Assembly: GCF_944387725.1 (NCBI RefSeq)
Contig: NZ_CALXGA010000005.1
Span: forward strand, 1-56,769
DNA length: 56,769 nt
Direction: 5' to 3'
Source: an uncultured Intestinimonas sp.
GTDB taxonomy: Bacteria > Bacillota > Clostridia > Oscillospirales > Oscillospiraceae
Both the position numbers and the translations under genes were made by a program. A model generated the notes under the pieces. It had not been told where the DNA came from. It searched no databases and saw only the letters and a program-made list of their open reading frames with translations. Positions 41,974 through 56,198 of the stretch are shown one piece after another (the first letter of the stretch is position 1; the number at the start of each line of letters is the position of its first letter).

Positions 41974-43236
41974 ATGAAACAGCTATCCGGCGGCGTGGCC
42001 GCCCCCAAGGGCTTTCGGGCTGCGGGCGTCCACTGCGGCGTCAAGAAGGGGAAGGGGGACGGCAACCAGCCTCCCATGAGCAAGATGCCTGAGGTCCTGG
42101 ACGGGAAGAAGGACCTGGCCCTCATCGTCTCCGATCAGCCCTGCGCGGCAGCGGCGGTCTACACCATGAACCGGGTGAAGGCCGCCCCCATCTATGTTAC
42201 CATGGACCACCTGGAAAACGGCGAGGCCCAGGGCATTGTGGTAAACTCCGGAAACGCCAACGCCTGCGCCCCCAACAGCCACGAGCACGCCGAGGAAATG
42301 TGCAGCCTGGCCGCCGCCGCCACCGGCATCAAGGCCAGCGACTTTGTGGTGGCCTCCACCGGCGTCATCGGACAGGAGCTGAACATGGCCGCCATCCGCG
42401 CCGGCCTCCCACAGTGCGCCGCCGGGCTGTCCCGGGAGGGCTCCGGCGACGCGGCCAACGCCATTATGACCACCGACACGGTGAAGAAGGAGATGGCCGT
42501 CTCCTGCACTGTGGGGGGGAAGACCGTGACCCTCGGCGCCATTGCCAAGGGCTCCGGCATGATCCACCCCAACATGGGCACCATGCTGTGCTTTGTCACC
42601 ACCGACTGCGCCATTACCCAGGAAATGCTCTCCGAAGCCCTCCACGAGATCGTCCCCCGGACCTTTAACCGGGTGACCATCGACGGGGACACCTCCACCA
42701 ACGATATGTGTGTGGTGCTGGCCAATGGCATGGCGGAAAATCCCCTCATTGAGTGGAAGGACGACGGCTACACCGTCTTCTATAAGGCCCTCTACAGCCT
42801 CTTCGAGCAAATGGCCCGGGCCATTGCCGCCGACGGGGAGGGGGCCAGCCGGCTCATCACCTGCACCGTCCGCAACGCCCGCAGTGAGGAGAGCGCCGAG
42901 CGCCTGGGCAAGGCGGTGGTGGGCTCCTCCCTGGTAAAGGCCGCCATGTTCGGCGCCGACGCCAACTGGGGCCGGGTCCTGTGCGCCATGGGCTACTCCA
43001 AGGCCCCCTTCCGGCCGGAGTTTGTGGACGTGAAGTTCTCCTCCGATGTGGGGGAAATTCTGGTCTGCCAGCAGGGGGCCGGGGTGGACTTTGACGAGGC
43101 CGCCGCCAAGAGCATCCTCAGTCAGGACGAGGTGGTCATTGATGTGGACCTCCACGAGGGGGAGTATGCCGCCACCTGCTGGGGCTGTGATCTGACTTAT
43201 GACTATGTGAGGATCAACGGGGACTATCGGACATGA
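41974..43236 (+). CDS. argJ: Bifunctional ornithine acetyltransferase/N-acetylglutamate synthase
   Basis: Transfers acetyl from N-acetylornithine to glutamate, which recycles acetyl and explains the absence of argE here; 420 residues. The N-terminal segment has AAPKGFRAAGVHCGVK; the substrate region has VVNSGNANAC. The self-cleavage site lies in KGSGMIHPNMGTMLCFVTTD, where the nucleophile Thr is kept but the preceding residue is Gly instead of the usual Ala. ATG 41974 is preferred to 41968 by spacing from GGAAGGAG. The next gene overlaps by four bases (ATGA). Confidence 0.95.
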   Translation: MKQLSGGVAAPKGFRAAGVHCGVKKGKGDGNQPPMSKMPEVLDGKKDLALIVSDQPCAAAAVYTMNRVKAAPIYVTMDHLENGEAQGIVVNSGNANACAPNSHEHAEEMCSLAAAATGIKASDFVVASTGVIGQELNMAAIRAGLPQCAAGLSREGSGDAANAIMTTDTVKKEMAVSCTVGGKTVTLGAIAKGSGMIHPNMGTMLCFVTTDCAITQEMLSEALHEIVPRTFNRVTIDGDTSTNDMCVVLANGMAENPLIEWKDDGYTVFYKALYSLFEQMARAIAADGEGASRLITCTVRNARSEESAERLGKAVVGSSLVKAAMFGADANWGRVLCAMGYSKAPFRPEFVDVKFSSDVGEILVCQQGAGVDFDEAAAKSILSQDEVVIDVDLHEGEYAATCWGCDLTYDYVRINGDYRT

Positions 43237-44744
43237 CAAAAAAGGTCAGGCCAGACGCGTTTTGCGGCCTGCTGGACCCATCCGCCGGAATGGGAACGCG
43301 CTGGGGACGGGCCCTGGAAGGCATTGCGCTGTTCTCCGCGCTGGGAATCGCTCTGCTGGTAGTCCTCCAAATTCTGGATGTGCAGCTGGGTGACTGGGGA
43401 GTCCTCTGGACGGTTCAAGTCGTTCTTCTGACGGCTGCGGTTGTCCTGCTGCTGTTCGGAACTGCCCGGCTGCGCTGTTCAGGCAGGACGCTCCTCCTTG
43501 TGGGGATGCTGGTGTCCCTGCTGCTGCGCCTGACCTTTCTGCTTGCGGTAAATACGCCGCCCAACAGCGATTTCTATGTGCTGAACCAGGCCTCCTGGAT
43601 GCTGGCCCAGGGGGACCTGTCCTGGACGGAACAGGTTTACTTCCAAAACTGGGGTTATCAAATCCCCTTTGTGGCCTATCAGGCCCTGGTGCTGAAGCTG
43701 ATTCCGTCCAACTGGGCGCTGAAGGCGCTCAACCTGGCCTTTATGGTCGGGAGCAATTTCCTGATTTACAAACTGGGACGGCTCTTCGTCAGCGAGAATG
43801 CCGCCGCCTCTGCGGCGGCGCTCTACGCGGTCTATCCCGGGGCGATCCACATGGTTTCGGTGCTCACCAACCAGCATATCGGCCTGTTTTTCCTCCTTTT
43901 GGGCCTGTGGCTGCTCCTGAGCCGTCTGACCTGGCCGAGGATGCTGCTGGCCGGCATATGTCTGGCAGCGGCAAACCTGATGCGCCCGGAGGAGGCTGTG
44001 GTCTGGGCCGCCATACTCTGCTGCGGGGTGTGCGTCCTGGTCCGGTGGCCGGCGAAGGAGCGGGCGAAGCGGATGGCGCTTGGATTGGCGCTGGCGCTGG
44101 CGGTCTATGTCCTGGCGCAGGCTGCGGCCGGCCTGGCGCTGCGTGTGTCCGGGATTGCGCCCCACGGCATTGGAAACAACGTGCCGGAGTGGAAATTTGT
44201 CGTGGGGCTGGACGCCGAAAATGAGTACGGCGACTATACGATGGAAAACGCCCATGTGTTGACCATAGAGAATGACGCGGAGCGGGAGCGGGAGACCTGG
44301 CGGGTGATCCGCCAGTCCTTCCGGGATTGCGAAAACGTTCCAGGCTTTTTCCTGAGCAAGGTCAGGGCGATGTGGGCCTGGGATGAGAGCTTCCACTGGT
44401 CCATGGGGCATCTGAAGCGGAATGCCCAGCCTGTGCCGGGCGTGACGGTGGATATGCTGATGAGTGGGATGCTCCTGGTGGAGAGAGGCGTCTATCTCGG
44501 CCTGTGGGGGCTGCTGGCTGCGGCGGCGGTGCTGCTGTTCCGGCGCCCGGAGCGGCGGGAAAAGGGAATCGCGCTGGTGTCTGCGGCAGTGATCTGCGCC
44601 TTTTTCTGTGTCTATCTGCTGATCGAGGTACAGCCGCGGTACCGTTACTCCGTCATACCCTTCCTGGTTGTTCTCTCCGGCGGTGTGGTCCAGCGGTTCC
44701 TGGCGCTGGGAGGGTTTTCCCGCAGCAAGAAAGAAAAAAGATGA
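43233..44744 (+). CDS. GT-C fold glycosyltransferase (GT39/ArnT-like), inside the arg operon
   Basis: A 503-residue polytopic membrane protein with about 11-12 helices. The first luminal loop carries an acidic motif, PPNSDFYVLNQASWML, where GT-C enzymes hold their catalytic Asp. Relatives use lipid-linked sugars to modify proteins or lipids outside the membrane. It overlaps the argJ stop (ATGA) and lies nine bases before argB, so it is translated within the arg operon. No link to arginine synthesis is evident. Codon choice looks slightly less GC-biased than its neighbours (by eye), which would fit later insertion. Confidence 0.8.
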   Translation: MTKKVRPDAFCGLLDPSAGMGTRWGRALEGIALFSALGIALLVVLQILDVQLGDWGVLWTVQVVLLTAAVVLLLFGTARLRCSGRTLLLVGMLVSLLLRLTFLLAVNTPPNSDFYVLNQASWMLAQGDLSWTEQVYFQNWGYQIPFVAYQALVLKLIPSNWALKALNLAFMVGSNFLIYKLGRLFVSENAAASAAALYAVYPGAIHMVSVLTNQHIGLFFLLLGLWLLLSRLTWPRMLLAGICLAAANLMRPEEAVVWAAILCCGVCVLVRWPAKERAKRMALGLALALAVYVLAQAAAGLALRVSGIAPHGIGNNVPEWKFVVGLDAENEYGDYTMENAHVLTIENDAERERETWRVIRQSFRDCENVPGFFLSKVRAMWAWDESFHWSMGHLKRNAQPVPGVTVDMLMSGMLLVERGVYLGLWGLLAAAAVLLFRRPERREKGIALVSAAVICAFFCVYLLIEVQPRYRYSVIPFLVVLSGGVVQRFLALGGFSRSKKEKR

Positions 44745-50586: not shown

Positions 50587-51729
50587 TCAGGTCACCACGA
50601 AGCCGGCGGGCAGCCGCCAGGAGGAGTTGGCGTAGTAGAAGGTCACGCTGGGCATCAGGTACTCCCCGTCGTAATACATACAGGAGGAGCTGCCTCCATC
50701 CAGGTTGGCGGCGTTGACCGCGCCGAACTCCTGCATGACCTGGATTAGGTCCCCGCTGGAGGCCCCCAGGTGGCCTGACTTCCCCCGGCCGTCGGTGACG
50801 AACAGCAGCACCGCGCCGTCGGCCCGCTGGCCAATGGCTGTGCGGGGGTTCAGGCCGCTGCCCTGTCCCTTCATGTCCCGGGTCTCGTTGTTGATGATCA
50901 GCTGGACAAAGTGGTTGTTGGAGTCGCTGGCCTCCTCCTGGAAGGTGACCGCGTCCCGGATCTTCTCCTGCGCCACCAGCTCCTCCACCTGGGCGGCGCT
51001 CATGCCGTCGATGTCGATGATTTGCAGCAGATGGTCCTCTGTGAAGCCGACCAGCACCAGGCCCGGGTACTGTTGGGGCTGGTTGTACTGGATCTCCCCA
51101 TGGGAGACCACCACGCCCAGAGGCCGGCCGCCCGTGTTGTTGGTGGAGTCGTACAGCCCGCCGTTGATCCCCCCGATGGCGCCGCTGTTCTCCACCAGCT
51201 CATCCAGGGGGATGCCCTGATCCCGCCAGGGGTAGATGGTGGCCAGGCTCACCCTGGAGGGGTCCTGGACGATCATCATGGTGCCGGTGTAGGTGGTCCC
51301 CGCCACCTCCACGATCTCGATGTCCTCCTCGGTCCCCGCCGTGTCTCCCTGACCAGAGCCGCCGATCTGGATGAGGGTGGAGTCCACCTGGGCGTCCAGG
51401 GCCTCCATGGAGTTCTGGTCCACGATGGCCTGGATTTCCTCTGGGCTCAGGAACCAGGAGGCCAGGAATTTCAGCTGTCCAGTCTCCAGGATGGTGGTCA
51501 CGAACATCTGCTGGGCGGTGGGGAAGGCGTCGGAGCAGATCATGCGCAGGCTCAGCAGCACCGTGAGCGCCAAGGCCGCCGCCAAAGTCAGCAGGCAGGC
51601 CAGCGCCCGCAGGGCCGCCCGCCCTGCCCGCCGGCCCAGACTGACGCCGCCGGGCTGCTCCCGTTTCCCACGCACCGCCGGGCTCCGGCCCTGCGCAGGG
51701 GCGGAACGGATCTCATTCTTCTCCATCAT
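50587..51729 (-). CDS. Phosphodiester glycosidase family protein (NAGPA domain), membrane-anchored
   Basis: A 380-residue protein. A basic N-terminus is followed by one membrane helix (about 38-62). A linker precedes the NAGPA/DUF2233 catalytic domain from about residue 150. Hallmarks are GAIGGINGGLYDSTNNTGG, NPRTAIGQRADGAVLLFV and NAANLDGGSSSCMYYDG. Relatives cleave sugar-phosphodiester bonds, such as GlcNAc-1-phosphodiester. It starts inside the upstream gene (AAGGAG seven bases before ATG 51729), so translation is coupled. Last gene of the envelope cluster. Confidence 0.9.
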   Translation of the reverse strand: MMEKNEIRSAPAQGRSPAVRGKREQPGGVSLGRRAGRAALRALACLLTLAAALALTVLLSLRMICSDAFPTAQQMFVTTILETGQLKFLASWFLSPEEIQAIVDQNSMEALDAQVDSTLIQIGGSGQGDTAGTEEDIEIVEVAGTTYTGTMMIVQDPSRVSLATIYPWRDQGIPLDELVENSGAIGGINGGLYDSTNNTGGRPLGVVVSHGEIQYNQPQQYPGLVLVGFTEDHLLQIIDIDGMSAAQVEELVAQEKIRDAVTFQEEASDSNNHFVQLIINNETRDMKGQGSGLNPRTAIGQRADGAVLLFVTDGRGKSGHLGASSGDLIQVMQEFGAVNAANLDGGSSSCMYYDGEYLMPSVTFYYANSSWRLPAGFVVT

Positions 51730-53248
51730 TCAGGATCTCCTTCATGCTGACCAGCTTCCAGGCGGGATCGTCCGCGCCGTCCTCTGGGTCGTCGTACCGG
51801 ACAAAGTAGAACCGGTCGTTCATGGCGTCATCCACCGGGGTGCCGTACCACAGGCGCATATGCTTGACGAAGCTGATATCCACCGAGAAGCAGTCCTCGG
51901 TGATCCAGACGAAATTGGTCACCGTGTTCCCGGTGAAGGCCGGGTCGTCCAGGGTGTGGCGGCTGGTAAAGGTGATGTCCACCCCGGTGGCGTACTTCTG
52001 GGCCACCTCGTACTGGTAGGAGCCGGGGATCAGATAGCCCCGAATCCGGGAGAAGGCCAGGTCGTTGGTCATGAACAGGCTCCAGTCCTGGGCCACCTGC
52101 AGCACGTCGATCTGGCTGCTCACCTCTGCCGGCACCTGGTCCAAGCCGGGGCCGGAGGAGGTGAGGTCATAGGCGCTGCGCCCCTCCTCCAGGGCCACGG
52201 GCTCGCCATCCCCGCCGGTGACGGTGATCTGGGCCCCGTCCTCCAGCACGGCCACCGAGTAGACGCACAGCTGGGGCAGGCCCTCCACATAGCCGGCGAA
52301 CTGCTGGTAGTCCGGGTTTGGCGTGCGGGTGACCGCCTCCTCGGGCACCGGGGTTCCGTCCACCTGGACGGTATATCCCTCGTCGGCGGTGATGGTACAG
52401 CTGGTCAGGGGCAGCTCAGCCCCGCCCTCGTAGCGGACGGTGTTGCCATAGCAGTCGGAGATGGTGACGTCGGGCGCGTCCAATCGGGCGATCTCATAGC
52501 GCACCAGCCCATCCCCCTGGGCCTGGCCGGGCCAGTCGGACTGGTTGACCTGGACGGTGAGCGCCGGGGGGAGGGTGAGGATGTAGTGGGTGTAGTCCAC
52601 CAGCACCCGGCCGTCGCGGATGGTGTACTGGGCCCGGGCCCCCGTCTCATCAGTGATGGAGAAGTCCGGGGGCAGGTATAGGCCGGACACGGTGTAGGTG
52701 CTCTCTCCGCTGTCCTCCGCTGCGGCGGTGAGGGGTGTCCCGTTCAGGCTCACCGAGAAGGCGGCAGGGACGGTGAGGGTGTAGTCGTGGGCCTCCAGCT
52801 CGGGCCGGACGTAGTCCACCGCCCAGTCCCGCATGGTGAACACGGCCAGCTTGGTGACCGGCGGGCCCTCCGCCCGCAGGCCCACCCGGGCCAGCACCAC
52901 GCCGCCCCGCTCCACCTGGTACGCCGCGCTGTCCCCCTGGAGGGAGTCCGCTGCCCGGACGACGCTCAGGTCCTCCTGGTCCCCGAACAGGGCCAGATAC
53001 GCCTGCCGGATGTCCTGGCCCTGCTCATAGGGGCCGGGGTCGGCCTGGGGGAGGTCATACTCCTCCAGGAAGGCGCCGCCGGCGGCCTTGGCGGCCAGCT
53101 CCTCCACCGCCAGCCACACCTGCCGCTCGGGCTGGGAGGCCTCGTACTGGCGCAGCAGGAAGTACACATAGGAGACCGACCCGATGACCAGGGCGGCCAG
53201 GACGGCAAGATAGATCAGATAGGCTCGTTTGAATGAGATCTTTTTCAT
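51713..53248 (-). CDS. Unknown membrane-anchored extracellular protein, 511 residues
   Basis: I do not recognise a family. A short basic N-terminus MKKISFKRAY is followed by one membrane helix (about 9-30); the rest is extracellular, beta-rich in composition and acidic. Several segments look like repeated beta-sandwich units (DYTLTVPAAFSVSLNGTPL, YILTLPPALTVQVNQSDW and GYTVQVDGTPVPEEAV share a pattern). Its ATG overlaps the GT2-GtrA stop (ATGA), and its 3' end overlaps the NAGPA gene by 17 bases. Coupling on both sides suggests it works with these enzymes, perhaps as a scaffold. Confidence 0.8.
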   Translation of the reverse strand: MKKISFKRAYLIYLAVLAALVIGSVSYVYFLLRQYEASQPERQVWLAVEELAAKAAGGAFLEEYDLPQADPGPYEQGQDIRQAYLALFGDQEDLSVVRAADSLQGDSAAYQVERGGVVLARVGLRAEGPPVTKLAVFTMRDWAVDYVRPELEAHDYTLTVPAAFSVSLNGTPLTAAAEDSGESTYTVSGLYLPPDFSITDETGARAQYTIRDGRVLVDYTHYILTLPPALTVQVNQSDWPGQAQGDGLVRYEIARLDAPDVTISDCYGNTVRYEGGAELPLTSCTITADEGYTVQVDGTPVPEEAVTRTPNPDYQQFAGYVEGLPQLCVYSVAVLEDGAQITVTGGDGEPVALEEGRSAYDLTSSGPGLDQVPAEVSSQIDVLQVAQDWSLFMTNDLAFSRIRGYLIPGSYQYEVAQKYATGVDITFTSRHTLDDPAFTGNTVTNFVWITEDCFSVDISFVKHMRLWYGTPVDDAMNDRFYFVRYDDPEDGADDPAWKLVSMKEILNDGEE

Positions 53249-54339
53249 ACTGTCTTGTCCTTTCCCTCCTCCGGGCCGTCCCCGTCCCGGCGGAACACCC
53301 ACCTGTGCTGCACACGGAAGCTGATAAAAAACAGCATGGTGTCCACCAGGATCTTCACCAGGGTGGACAGGGCGGGCGAAGTGATGGTGAACACGCCCTC
53401 GGCCAGAAACACCAGGCAGGCGGAGGCCGCGATCTGACACACGGCCAGGATGTAGTACCGCGCCAGAGCACGGGTGCTGGCCCGCTCCTCAAAGACCAGG
53501 TTGGCGTTGACCCAGAAGTTCAGCAGGGAGGAGACCGCCCGGGCCAGGAAGGCGGCGGTGAAGGTGGTGGGGATGGGCAGGAAAGCCAGGACCTCCAGAG
53601 ACTTCAGCAGGAAAAAGGCCAGCTCGTCCACCACGCAGGACCCCAGGGAGCTGAACAGATACTTCAAGATCACGCCGTAGACCCGCAGGCTGTCCCGCAC
53701 CACCCGGAAGTGGGAGGAGCGGTTGCCCTCTAGGTAGACCACGGTGATGGGCACCTCTACGAAGGGGACGTGGCGGTGGTTCATGAGGAAGAGCATATTG
53801 GTCTCGTACTCATACCGGTCCCCCTTGGCCCCGGCCAGCATGGGTATGTACGGCCTGGGGATGGCCCGCAGGCCGGTCTGGGTGTCGTGGACCTTCATAC
53901 CCAAAAGCAGGCGGAACACGGCGATGGTGATCCGGTTACCCGCCCGGCTCTTGAAGGGGACGGAGGGGTGGGAGAAGTCCCGCACCCCCAGGGCCACCTG
54001 CCCGCTGTCCAGCATGGCCTGAGCCACGGCGGCGATGTCCTGGGGCAGGTGCTGCCCGTCGGCGTCGGCGGTGACCACCCCGGCCTGCTCCGGCTGGTGC
54101 TGGAGGAAATATGCCATGGCGGTCTTCAGGGCCGCCCCCTTCCCCCGGTTGGCCGGGTGGCGCAGCAGGGTGCAGCCTGGGATCGCCTCCGCCTGTTGAA
54201 AGAGAGAGGCGAACGCCGGGCCGCTGCCATCGTCCACCACCAGGATATCGGTAAACCCGGCCTGGCGCAGTCCCTCCAGCGTGCCGATCAGCTTCTGATC
54301 CGGCTGGTATGCGGGAATGATAACAGAGACCCGATTCAT
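53245..54339 (-). CDS. Bifunctional GT2 glycosyltransferase / GtrA-like membrane protein
   Basis: A 364-residue fusion. The N-terminal GT2 domain (about 1-225) resembles dolichyl-phosphate mannose synthase: VSVIIPAYQPDQKLIGTLEG, DILVVDDGSG, and VTADADGQHLPQDI with the metal-binding DAD, then TQTGLRAIPR. The C-terminal GtrA domain (about 230-350) has four helices, including SSLLNFWVNANLVF and the end QHRWVF. Likely function is to make and flip an undecaprenyl-phosphate sugar. The GGGAGG ribosome binding site is two bases from the ATG, which is closer than usual. Confidence 0.92.
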   Translation of the reverse strand: MNRVSVIIPAYQPDQKLIGTLEGLRQAGFTDILVVDDGSGPAFASLFQQAEAIPGCTLLRHPANRGKGAALKTAMAYFLQHQPEQAGVVTADADGQHLPQDIAAVAQAMLDSGQVALGVRDFSHPSVPFKSRAGNRITIAVFRLLLGMKVHDTQTGLRAIPRPYIPMLAGAKGDRYEYETNMLFLMNHRHVPFVEVPITVVYLEGNRSSHFRVVRDSLRVYGVILKYLFSSLGSCVVDELAFFLLKSLEVLAFLPIPTTFTAAFLARAVSSLLNFWVNANLVFEERASTRALARYYILAVCQIAASACLVFLAEGVFTITSPALSTLVKILVDTMLFFISFRVQHRWVFRRDGDGPEEGKDKTV

Positions 54340-54370
54340 ATCCTCCCGCCTTTCCTCTTGTCTCGTTTCA

Positions 54371-55852
54371 TCATCGCCGGCGGCGCTGGACCCGGTGCAC
54401 GGCCAGGACAGCGCACGCCGCAGCGATCAGCGCCCCCGCCGCCAGGCCGGCGGCCAGCCGCCTCCGGGCCGCCTGCTCCTGGGCCAGCCGCTCTGCCTCC
54501 GTCTGCCGGGCCTCCTCCGCCAGCCACTCGGCTTCGGCCTGCTCCTGGGCCAGCCGCTCCGCCTCGGCCCGTCGGGCCTCCTCCGCCAGCCGCTCCGCCT
54601 CGGCCCGCTGGGCATAGGTCTCTACATGTTCAAAGAAGTCGCCCCCCGCGGTGTCCGGCCCCACCTGGGTGTCGTAGAGCCCGTACAGACAGGGGGAGTA
54701 GCTCCCGATGTCCGCCGCCCGCTGGATGGGGACGGTGGATGTGCCGTAGATCCAACGGTAGAACCAGGTCCAGTGCTGGCTCTCGTGGCAGGCAAAGCCC
54801 TCCTGGGTCACCTGGAAGGGGGTCCTGCCCCCCAGGCTGTCCAGGGGGGTATCCCAATCCATGACGATCTGGTTCTCCGGGTACAGGTGCAGGTAGGTCT
54901 TCTCCACCTGCCAGGCTCCAAATTCCTCCGCCGTGTCCGGGTCCTGGGCGGGGTCGGCGGCCCGGTCCAGCGCCTCTCCCAGGGCGTCGGCGCACAGCAC
55001 ATGGGCGCCGTGACCGTACTCCCCGTCCAGGTCGTGGGAGACCACCACCAGGGGCCGGAAGCGCCGGATGCACCAGGTCAGGTAGTCCACAAAATCCTCG
55101 TAGGTGTAGCCCGCCGCCTCATAGACAGAGACGGCCTGGGCCAGGGCAGTGTCCCGGTCTTTGGACTCGGCGTACAGGTCGGGGAACTCGGGCATGACGG
55201 GGTAATTGCGTACGCCCACCGTCCACAGGCCGTCCAGCTGCTCATGGGTCCGCCGGTGGTCGGCGTAGCCCCCCTCGAAATACTGCACCAGATAGGCCAC
55301 CTGGACGTTGAGCCCCCGCTCCACGGCGTAGTAGGGCAGCACGCCGGCGAAGAACAGCTGCTCGTCGTCGGCGTGGGAGGAGACCAGCAGCAGGTCGGCC
55401 CGCTCACAGGGGGGCTGCCACACCTGGACCCAGCCGGGGAGCTCCCCCTCAGAGAACACATAGAGCTCCCCGATGTCCGCCCCCGCCGGAAAGTCCAGCA
55501 CCAGCGATTCTGGCAGGCCGTCCCCCAGGGCGGCCAGGTCCACATACTCGTGGAGGAAGCCCTTCTCTCCGCAGGACAGGCTGTCCCCCGTGAGCGGGTC
55601 GGCGGCCGTCCAGGGCTGGGGGATGGTGTCAAATTCGATGTACACGCCGGCGATGCCCCCCGCCCGGGAGAGGGTCACCTGGGCCGGGCCGCCGGCGCTG
55701 GCCACAGCGGTGCGGCTGCCGTCGGTCAGGTTGCCGGGGAGGGAGAAGCCCACGGCCTCCACCGCCGCGTCCCCATACCGGGCCTCATCGGCCAGAACGG
55801 GTATGGCGCAGCAGGCCAGCAGGGCCGCCAGTACCATGAGAGATCGGATCAC
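54371..55852 (-). CDS. PIG-L family deacetylase with C-terminal coiled coil and membrane anchor
   Basis: About 493 residues. A signal peptide (about 1-22, ends AIPVLA) precedes a beta-rich N-terminal domain (about 25-165). The PIG-L domain (about 165-390) carries SSHADDEQLFFAGVLP (the AHPDDE-like zinc motif), HRRTHEQLDG, and SHDLDGEYGHGAH. The C-terminus is a tandem 22-residue repeat rich in Ala, Glu and Arg (about 415-465), then a membrane helix and a basic RRRR tail. GTG 55852 is preferred because the signal peptide begins there. Relatives deacetylate GlcNAc-containing glycans. First gene of the envelope cluster. Confidence 0.88.
   Translation of the reverse strand: MIRSLMVLAALLACCAIPVLADEARYGDAAVEAVGFSLPGNLTDGSRTAVASAGGPAQVTLSRAGGIAGVYIEFDTIPQPWTAADPLTGDSLSCGEKGFLHEYVDLAALGDGLPESLVLDFPAGADIGELYVFSEGELPGWVQVWQPPCERADLLLVSSHADDEQLFFAGVLPYYAVERGLNVQVAYLVQYFEGGYADHRRTHEQLDGLWTVGVRNYPVMPEFPDLYAESKDRDTALAQAVSVYEAAGYTYEDFVDYLTWCIRRFRPLVVVSHDLDGEYGHGAHVLCADALGEALDRAADPAQDPDTAEEFGAWQVEKTYLHLYPENQIVMDWDTPLDSLGGRTPFQVTQEGFACHESQHWTWFYRWIYGTSTVPIQRAADIGSYSPCLYGLYDTQVGPDTAGGDFFEHVETYAQRAEAERLAEEARRAEAERLAQEQAEAEWLAEEARQTEAERLAQEQAARRRLAAGLAAGALIAAACAVLAVHRVQRRRR
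54476..54612 (-). repeat. Tandem repeat in the PIG-L gene tail
   Basis: Two copies of a 66-base unit encode 22 residues each, AEAERLAEEARRAEAERLAQ plus EQ, and a variant with EWLAEEARQT. They form a likely coiled coil before the membrane anchor. Confidence 0.75.
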
Positions 55853-56198
55853 TCTGCCTATCTCCGCCCGCCTCCTTTCGCCCCGCGCCGGAGCTCTCGG
55901 CCGGCGGGAGGCACGGGATCTGTCTTTTATAGTTATGCCACAACTCGTCGAAAAAAACAATAGGTTGATTGTAAAATCAAGTAGAACACCAAAGAGAAAT
56001 GTCCACAGTGACCTTCCTCCCATGCAGGATAGGGCGCCTGGCAAACACTCCATTCAAGGGAGCGCAATCACTATGGACGACCACGATGATGCCACAGATT
56101 TGCCGAAACACAAGCAGGGACCCCACGCACAACAAACGTATGAATGAACCTATTACTAAAAAAGTGAGTATCTGCCTTCTCAAACTTCACACCCCATT
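55853..56198. other. Intergenic stretch upstream of the envelope cluster
   Basis: Lower in GC than the cluster. It should hold the promoter of the PIG-L gene; I see only weak candidates (TATAAA on the minus strand near 55927-55932). A minus-strand frame of 68 codons (55977-56183, TTG start) has a hydrophobic beginning but no family match. TCTCAAACTTCACACCCC near 56179-56195 resembles one end of the family C element. Confidence 0.45.

Follow-up and report, generated by a model that had tools for sequence, protein, structure and literature searches.

Envelope sugars carried on polyprenyl phosphate are best known from three-component systems such as CsbB/GtcA/YfhO and GtrB/GtrA/GtrX, in which the final step falls to a transferase that acts outside (PMC7389260). 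A second kind of cassette is represented by hexSDF of C. difficile—an MGDG synthase-like protein, a polysaccharide deacetylase, and an MprF-like protein (PMC10128005)—and by gpgSDF of P. aeruginosa, which encodes a GT4, a COG3233 protein, and an AglD2/YbhN protein (PMC12713373). NAGPA, in turn, is mentioned as fusions to cell-surface proteins (PMC11188070; PMC12419801). Few bacterial roles are assigned to NAGPA/DUF2233 in the literature covered, though matches are common in the order studied here. Statements about cited papers throughout refer to the parts of them covered here.

Here we describe a locus that brings together an NAGPA-type glycosidase, a 511-aa anchored protein, a GT2-GtrA fusion, and a PIG-L deacetylase. 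The set is real and recurrent, and it is a variant of an envelope-sugar cassette with a constant two-gene core. The preliminary description knew of no pathway with this exact set, and our literature searches for the set and for bacterial NAGPA likewise listed no paper whose title and abstract describe it.

Organization of the Locus

The window—the whole 56,769-nt stretch analyzed—is contig C5 of a genome that is 84.7% complete in 116 contigs. On its minus strand, positions 50587–55852 carry PIG-L, GT2-GtrA, the 511-aa gene, and NAGPA in that order and co-directionally, as had been claimed from the sequence. The overlapping ends ascribed to three of the genes are likewise present: GT2-GtrA and the 511-aa gene have 4 bp in common (53245–53248), and the 511-aa gene and NAGPA have 17 bp (51713–51729). 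The PIG-L and GT2-GtrA genes are separated by a 31-bp gap. A purine-rich stretch lies 5′ of each of the four starts, and GC3 is 0.88–0.91 across all four frames. The PIG-L start is uncertain: The candidate GTG at 55852 follows AAGGAGG, and the frame stays open further, to an ATG at 56053.

Between 50000 and 56769 there are two promoter-like sites (shuffles 0.8, SD 0.8) and two terminator-like sites (shuffles 3.7, SD 2.1), neither count being informative; a tRNA scan and an Rfam search at gathering scores returned no matches. Near the contig end, a 32-nt inverted repeat (56561–56592/56694–56725; arms 78% complementary, 101 nt apart) is possibly the remnant of a small mobile element. The window also has, at 43233–44744 on the plus strand, a gene for a PMT_2-type GT-C that scores 25.9 bits against a cut-off of 26.1, and 29.4 when the whole genome was searched. 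It shares bases with the stop of an argJ-like gene, and argB-, argD-, and argF-like genes come after it (arg names assigned by eye), which places a glycosyltransferase inside an arginine operon. By BLAST, GT2-GtrA and this GT-C are unrelated.

Catalytic Domains and Conserved Residues

The NAGPA-type phosphodiester glycosidase (50587–51729, minus strand; 380 aa) carries an N-terminal helix anchor at residues 31–64 and scores 102.5 bits against PF09992 (cut-off 25). Residues N189, R296, D313, and D344-G345-G346 are invariant in a 22-row alignment that took in 22 of 38 sequences. The putative activity is cleavage of a sugar-1-phosphodiester.

The PIG-L de-N-acetylase (54371–55852, minus strand; ~493 aa) has a signal-peptide-like start, a putative N-terminal domain, its PIG-L domain at residues 155–294 (PF02585, 35.3 bits against 28.2), and a C-terminal hydrophobic helix followed by an Arg tail. 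Its profile matches MshB structures. H160, D162, D163, H281, and H284, which we take to be the His/Asp motif residues of the family, are invariant across 13 rows (13 of 15 sequences taken in).

The GT2-GtrA fusion (53245–54339, minus strand; 364 aa) joins a polyprenyl-phosphate-sugar synthase-type domain (Glycos_transf_2, 54.3 bits against 23.3) to a GtrA/DPMS-type membrane domain; the latter, at 24.0 bits, lies slightly below the GtrA_DPMS_TM cut-off of 26.1, and its homologue in locus L012 scores 31.6. D37, D92, and D94 are invariant in an 18-row alignment (18 of 19 sequences). Matches of the GT2 profile to the structures of ArnC, dolichol-phosphate mannose synthase (DPM synthase), and sll0501 suggest kinship with enzymes that make polyprenyl-phosphate sugars, its predicted product. 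The best NCBIfam relative, the polyprenyl-phospho-GalNAc synthase PpgS (NF058614), scores 65.4 bits, far under its equivalog cut-off of 370. Sequences left out of the four family profiles and alignments were mostly near-copies, truncated, or late-found rows.

Loss of catalytic residues, which the preliminary description had said would count against its proposal, was looked for on these alignments and not found; the conserved motifs are intact. Prediction also bears out its placement of every catalytic domain except the GT2 outside the membrane. Its account of membrane attachment holds for the anchored 511-aa protein and falls short for PIG-L, which it had called secreted: All four products look membrane-attached, because the PIG-L protein too ends in a hydrophobic helix and Arg tail. 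One predicted anchor in each of the three outside proteins would suit a membrane-proximal substrate.

Architecture of the 511-aa Protein

The 511-aa protein (51713–53248, minus strand) begins MKKISFKR, directly followed by a transmembrane helix (residues 6–37). Structure prediction then gives an NTF2-like domain (~40–149), three Ig-like domains (~154–362), and a second NTF2-like domain (374–504). No Pfam or NCBIfam family exceeded its cut-off, the one Pfam match having an E-value of 0.055, and no Pfam zinc-ribbon family matched the N terminus. A PDB search with the single sequence gave no match; with the 30-row profile (30 of 37 sequences taken in) it gave three, the best, at E = 0.01, being a designed NTF2-like protein. 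Foldseek TM-scores for the whole predicted protein were low, the C-terminal NTF2-like domain being the only one well tested, and a viral library yielded nothing useful.

YvbJ of B. subtilis is a TcaA cell-wall protein. TcaA has been linked to wall teichoic acid (PMC10328498). TcaA_5th matches were counted in 0 of 30 relatives and in 3 of 149 in the phylum; weak matches appear in 2 of 30 family members (best E = 0.012), with none in the window protein itself. By hhalign against three TcaA_5th proteins, probabilities were 94.6%, 4.8%, and 3.6%, the first with a score of 59.8 against at most 20.1 over 60 shuffles. The protein appears to be a remote relative of one TcaA-type protein. The preliminary description had called it unknown; it still lacks a named family, but with a predicted NTF2/Ig/NTF2 architecture and a remote likeness to TcaA it is no longer a blank.

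Co-occurrence Across Genomes

The 511-aa profile matched in 64 of 295 genomes of the order and in 2 of 299 genomes of the phylum sample, namely the window's own genome and one weak match. Leaving out five weak genomes gives 65 loci of the 511-aa gene in 59 genomes. NAGPA lies within 700 bp of the 511-aa gene at 64 of these 65 loci; the exception is a 107-codon fragment, and G220, one of the 64, has a short NAGPA match of 66 codons.

Of the 59 genomes with the 511-aa gene, 55 carry the GT2-GtrA subfamily (E ≤ 1e-40), vs. 38 of the 236 that lack that gene (Fisher P = 1.6e-29, shared ancestry ignored). Among the 65 loci, 29 have a GT2-GtrA copy within 3 kb, another 31 have one farther away in the same genome, and 5 gave no match. 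The PIG-L subfamily (E ≤ 1e-20) was detected in 37 of 270 genomes; the 511-aa gene is also present in 33 of these (P = 6.5e-22, assuming that all 59 genomes lie within the 270 and ignoring shared ancestry), and 16 of the 37 copies lie within 4.5 kb of that gene. No more than 33 of the 59 therefore gave a PIG-L match, in a sample of 270 genomes that may not include all 59. Co-occurrence exceeds chance in counts that ignore shared ancestry. The preliminary description's view of the genes as a linked set is upheld by these counts; independent occurrence, the result it had said would speak against the set, was looked for and not found. NAGPA and the 511-aa gene form the core and the rest is optional, because GT2-GtrA is near at only 29 of 65 loci and PIG-L is present in at most 33 of 59 genomes.

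NAGPA matches as a whole are found in 212 of the 295 genomes of the order. Another 20 NAGPA loci divide by score: A 511-aa partner is present at the 7 with 367–415 bits and absent from the 13 with 215–318, and the idea that NAGPA in general requires this partner was rejected on that ground.

Locus Variants and Descent

We read 35 loci in detail, excluding the window: 28 chosen by 511-aa matches and 7 by NAGPA matches (of 20 fetched). All four genes are present at 9, GT2-GtrA without PIG-L at 8, PIG-L without GT2-GtrA at 4, and the pair alone at 13; the remaining one, L012, carries the GtrA domain and the 511-aa protein in a single frame. Genes may be missed at some loci, because several are cut by contig ends. 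The order seen in the window recurs at L010, L011, L013, L047, and L048, with flanking genes that differ among the first three, and PIG-L/GT2/NAGPA/511-aa is the order at L015, L016, L057, and L058. The expectation of a four-gene order conserved across genomes is therefore only partly borne out: The set recurs, but its order varies, and the idea that what is conserved is an invariant four-gene operon was rejected, with all four genes at 9 of 35 loci. In L012 (2–2320), at a contig end in a single MAG, a GtrA domain and the 511-aa protein share one 772-aa open frame, possibly a natural fusion. A peptide-pattern scan of the genome contigs reached three loci.

GT2-GtrA and NAGPA also pair repeatedly: Among 20 loci fetched for GT2-GtrA copies that do not neighbor the 511-aa gene, 4 (L136–L139) run directly from GT2-GtrA into a divergent NAGPA of a second subfamily, without a 511-aa partner; L133 has an NAGPA that the contig end truncates.

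Two other kinds of neighbor were seen. In three genomes, PAP2 phosphatase genes sit immediately next to the set, at L014 (12967–13632), L059 (5978–6547), and L102 (519–1088). CapA/PGA_cap-like genes adjoin the set, or a GT2-GtrA copy elsewhere, in L052 (10588–13070), L064 (2942–4177), and L120 (1948–4485); Pfam confirms the first of two in L052 and one in L064, the others being assigned by eye.

A single-sequence search found no 511-aa gene in 10 congeners, most of whose genomes are incomplete. In a 37-row NAGPA tree, the window copy forms a group with L010 and L011, which is joined next by L012 and by copies from families f18 and f20 (support 99/94); L015, L016, and L017, the other three copies from the window's family, fall elsewhere. 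Copies from families f20 and f10 (L049 and L050) are close neighbors, with branches of 0.055 and 0.052. The tree fits horizontal movement, with duplication and loss as the alternative.

A Proposed Outer-Leaflet Sugar Module

A sugar-1-phosphate bond outside the membrane is the kind of bond that a GT2-GtrA-type protein makes and exposes and that an NAGPA-type enzyme breaks, and a secreted deacetylase added to these two suggests an amino-sugar route. Our main reading, to which we give a rough probability of 0.42, is an outer-leaflet membrane sugar module acting on a lipid-linked amino sugar. GT2-GtrA would load polyprenyl phosphate with an N-acetylhexosamine (HexNAc) inside and then expose it outside; anchored PIG-L would take the acetyl group off the lipid-linked HexNAc; and anchored NAGPA, with the NTF2/Ig/NTF2 protein as its obligate partner, would act on the sugar-1-phosphodiester and free the carrier. 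The amino sugar would then be either released or handed to an envelope acceptor held by the 511-aa protein as a putative scaffold. The identity of the sugar and of the acceptor, the order of the steps, and the lipid-linked sugar as NAGPA substrate are predictions from domain content and gene neighborhood; NAGPA and its partner may serve carrier recycling, transferase action, or product trimming. The sugar-phosphate decoration of the wall or of a membrane polymer that the preliminary description proposed is a candidate product. In favor of the module count the NAGPA adjacency and the co-occurrence figures, the single frame in L012, the GT2-GtrA/NAGPA pairs of L136–L139, the GT2 profile matches to polyprenyl-phosphate enzymes, the predicted anchor in each outside protein, the PAP2 neighbors, and the link of the TcaA relative to wall teichoic acid. 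Trapped carrier lipid harms cells (PMC12826051), and a releasing enzyme would be useful for that reason.

The literature search found no report of a polyprenyl-phosphate sugar as an NAGPA substrate. Animal NAGPA removes alpha-linked GlcNAc, whereas beta-linked products are expected from GT2 enzymes of the GT2-GtrA kind. The main objection to the module follows: A direct substrate match would need changed specificity. The dependence of the TcaA link on one of three TcaA_5th proteins, the 38 genomes that have GT2-GtrA without the 511-aa gene, the optional presence of GT2-GtrA and PIG-L beside the pair, and the relatedness of the genomes counted also weigh against it.

A classical three-component decoration, in which GT2-GtrA feeds a GT-C encoded elsewhere while NAGPA and its partner do no more than cut back or reshape sugar-1-phosphate branches of a polymer resembling teichoic acid, is a tentative alternative that we hold to be somewhat unlikely. 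CsbB-GtcA-YfhO systems do act through an outside-acting glycosyltransferase (PMC7389260), and the window's own genome has PMT_2 GT-C genes over the cut-off at window positions 43233–44744 and on contig C100, with a weak match on C62. The same 84.7% complete genome nevertheless gave no YfhO match; a neighbor of at least 300 aa with at least six predicted transmembrane segments lies within 4 kb at only 7 of the 35 loci (several of the 35 being contig-cut), with no recurring type by eye; and the NAGPA/511-aa pair is left unexplained.

It is quite doubtful that the locus is instead an amino-sugar membrane lipid cassette like hexSDF and gpgSDF, by which a HexNAc-lipid would be made, flipped, and de-N-acetylated to change surface charge, with NAGPA and its partner turning the lipid over. 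The synthase/flippase/deacetylase logic is the same (PMC10128005; PMC12713373), and parts of the window set are predicted to be membrane-anchored; yet the synthase, deacetylase, and flippase families differ, and the GT2-GtrA profile matches polyprenyl-phosphate enzymes.

Very improbable, in our judgment, is a polyprenyl-P-mannose synthase feeding protein O-mannosylation by the PMT on contig C100, with PIG-L and NAGPA at work on unrelated glycans. A protein of the genome does score 52.2 bits for PMT and 72.9 for PMT_4TMC, and dolichol-phosphate mannose synthase is among the GT2 profile matches, but PIG-L implies an N-acetyl sugar, and unrelated substrates would not readily account for the co-occurrence of GT2-GtrA and PIG-L with the pair. 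Slightly less probable still is a hydrolase that scavenges phosphoglycans from host or diet and has incidental neighbors: Gut-type sources (L010, chicken; L012, buffalo cecum), the wide spread of NAGPA, and the 13 loci with the pair alone would suit it, but no transporter or sugar-use genes recur by eye beside the pair in the loci surveyed for neighbors, and GT2-GtrA accompanies the 511-aa gene in 55 of 59 genomes.

Should the outer-leaflet module be right, polyprenyl-phosphate recycling would gain a further step, either release of the carrier or transfer. That an NAGPA subfamily keeps to one partner and to a predicted polyprenyl-phosphate-sugar synthase yields a concrete, testable substrate hypothesis, and the module offers a function for a 511-aa family that neither Pfam nor NCBIfam names and that, by the phylum sample, is hardly found outside the order.

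Comparison with Known Systems

With CsbB/GtcA/YfhO and GtrB/GtrA/GtrX, the locus shares a GT2 predicted to make a polyprenyl-phosphate sugar, a putative GtrA-type flippase domain, and an outside-acting partner. It differs in that a single protein combines the putative synthase and flippase, no linked GT-C was found, and NAGPA, the NTF2/Ig protein, and PIG-L stand in its place. One could picture NAGPA and its partner in the role of the third, outside-acting component—an enzyme of soluble fold using a polyprenyl-phosphate-sugar donor, passing the sugar to a partner-bound acceptor or hydrolyzing it, and so replacing a multi-TM GT-C—though we consider this unlikely.

In Lactobacillus johnsonii, an envelope glycan likewise requires the GtrA-GtrB pair 241/242, to which the authors added no third transferase; the pair consists of separate genes with a glucan product, and the covered part of that paper does not mention NAGPA, PIG-L, or NTF2/Ig proteins (PMC7117936). 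Because this pair is on record, absence of a third transferase alone is not unique to the present locus. The hexSDF and gpgSDF cassettes resemble it in the logic of an amino-sugar synthase, a deacetylase, and a flippase, but in the material covered each is an operon of three genes, none of which is NAGPA or NTF2/Ig, and by Pfam the window set belongs to GT2, PIG-L, and GtrA rather than to their families. TcaA proteins share the predicted layout of a single transmembrane helix followed by NTF2-like, Ig-like, and NTF2-like domains, with an hhalign match to one of them; the 511-aa protein differs in lacking a zinc ribbon, in having more Ig-like repeats, and in its tie to NAGPA. Compared with NAGPA (the uncovering enzyme) and bacterial DUF2233 proteins, the window glycosidase forms a subfamily of its own by score, set apart by its own N-terminal anchor and extension and by a constant partner gene.
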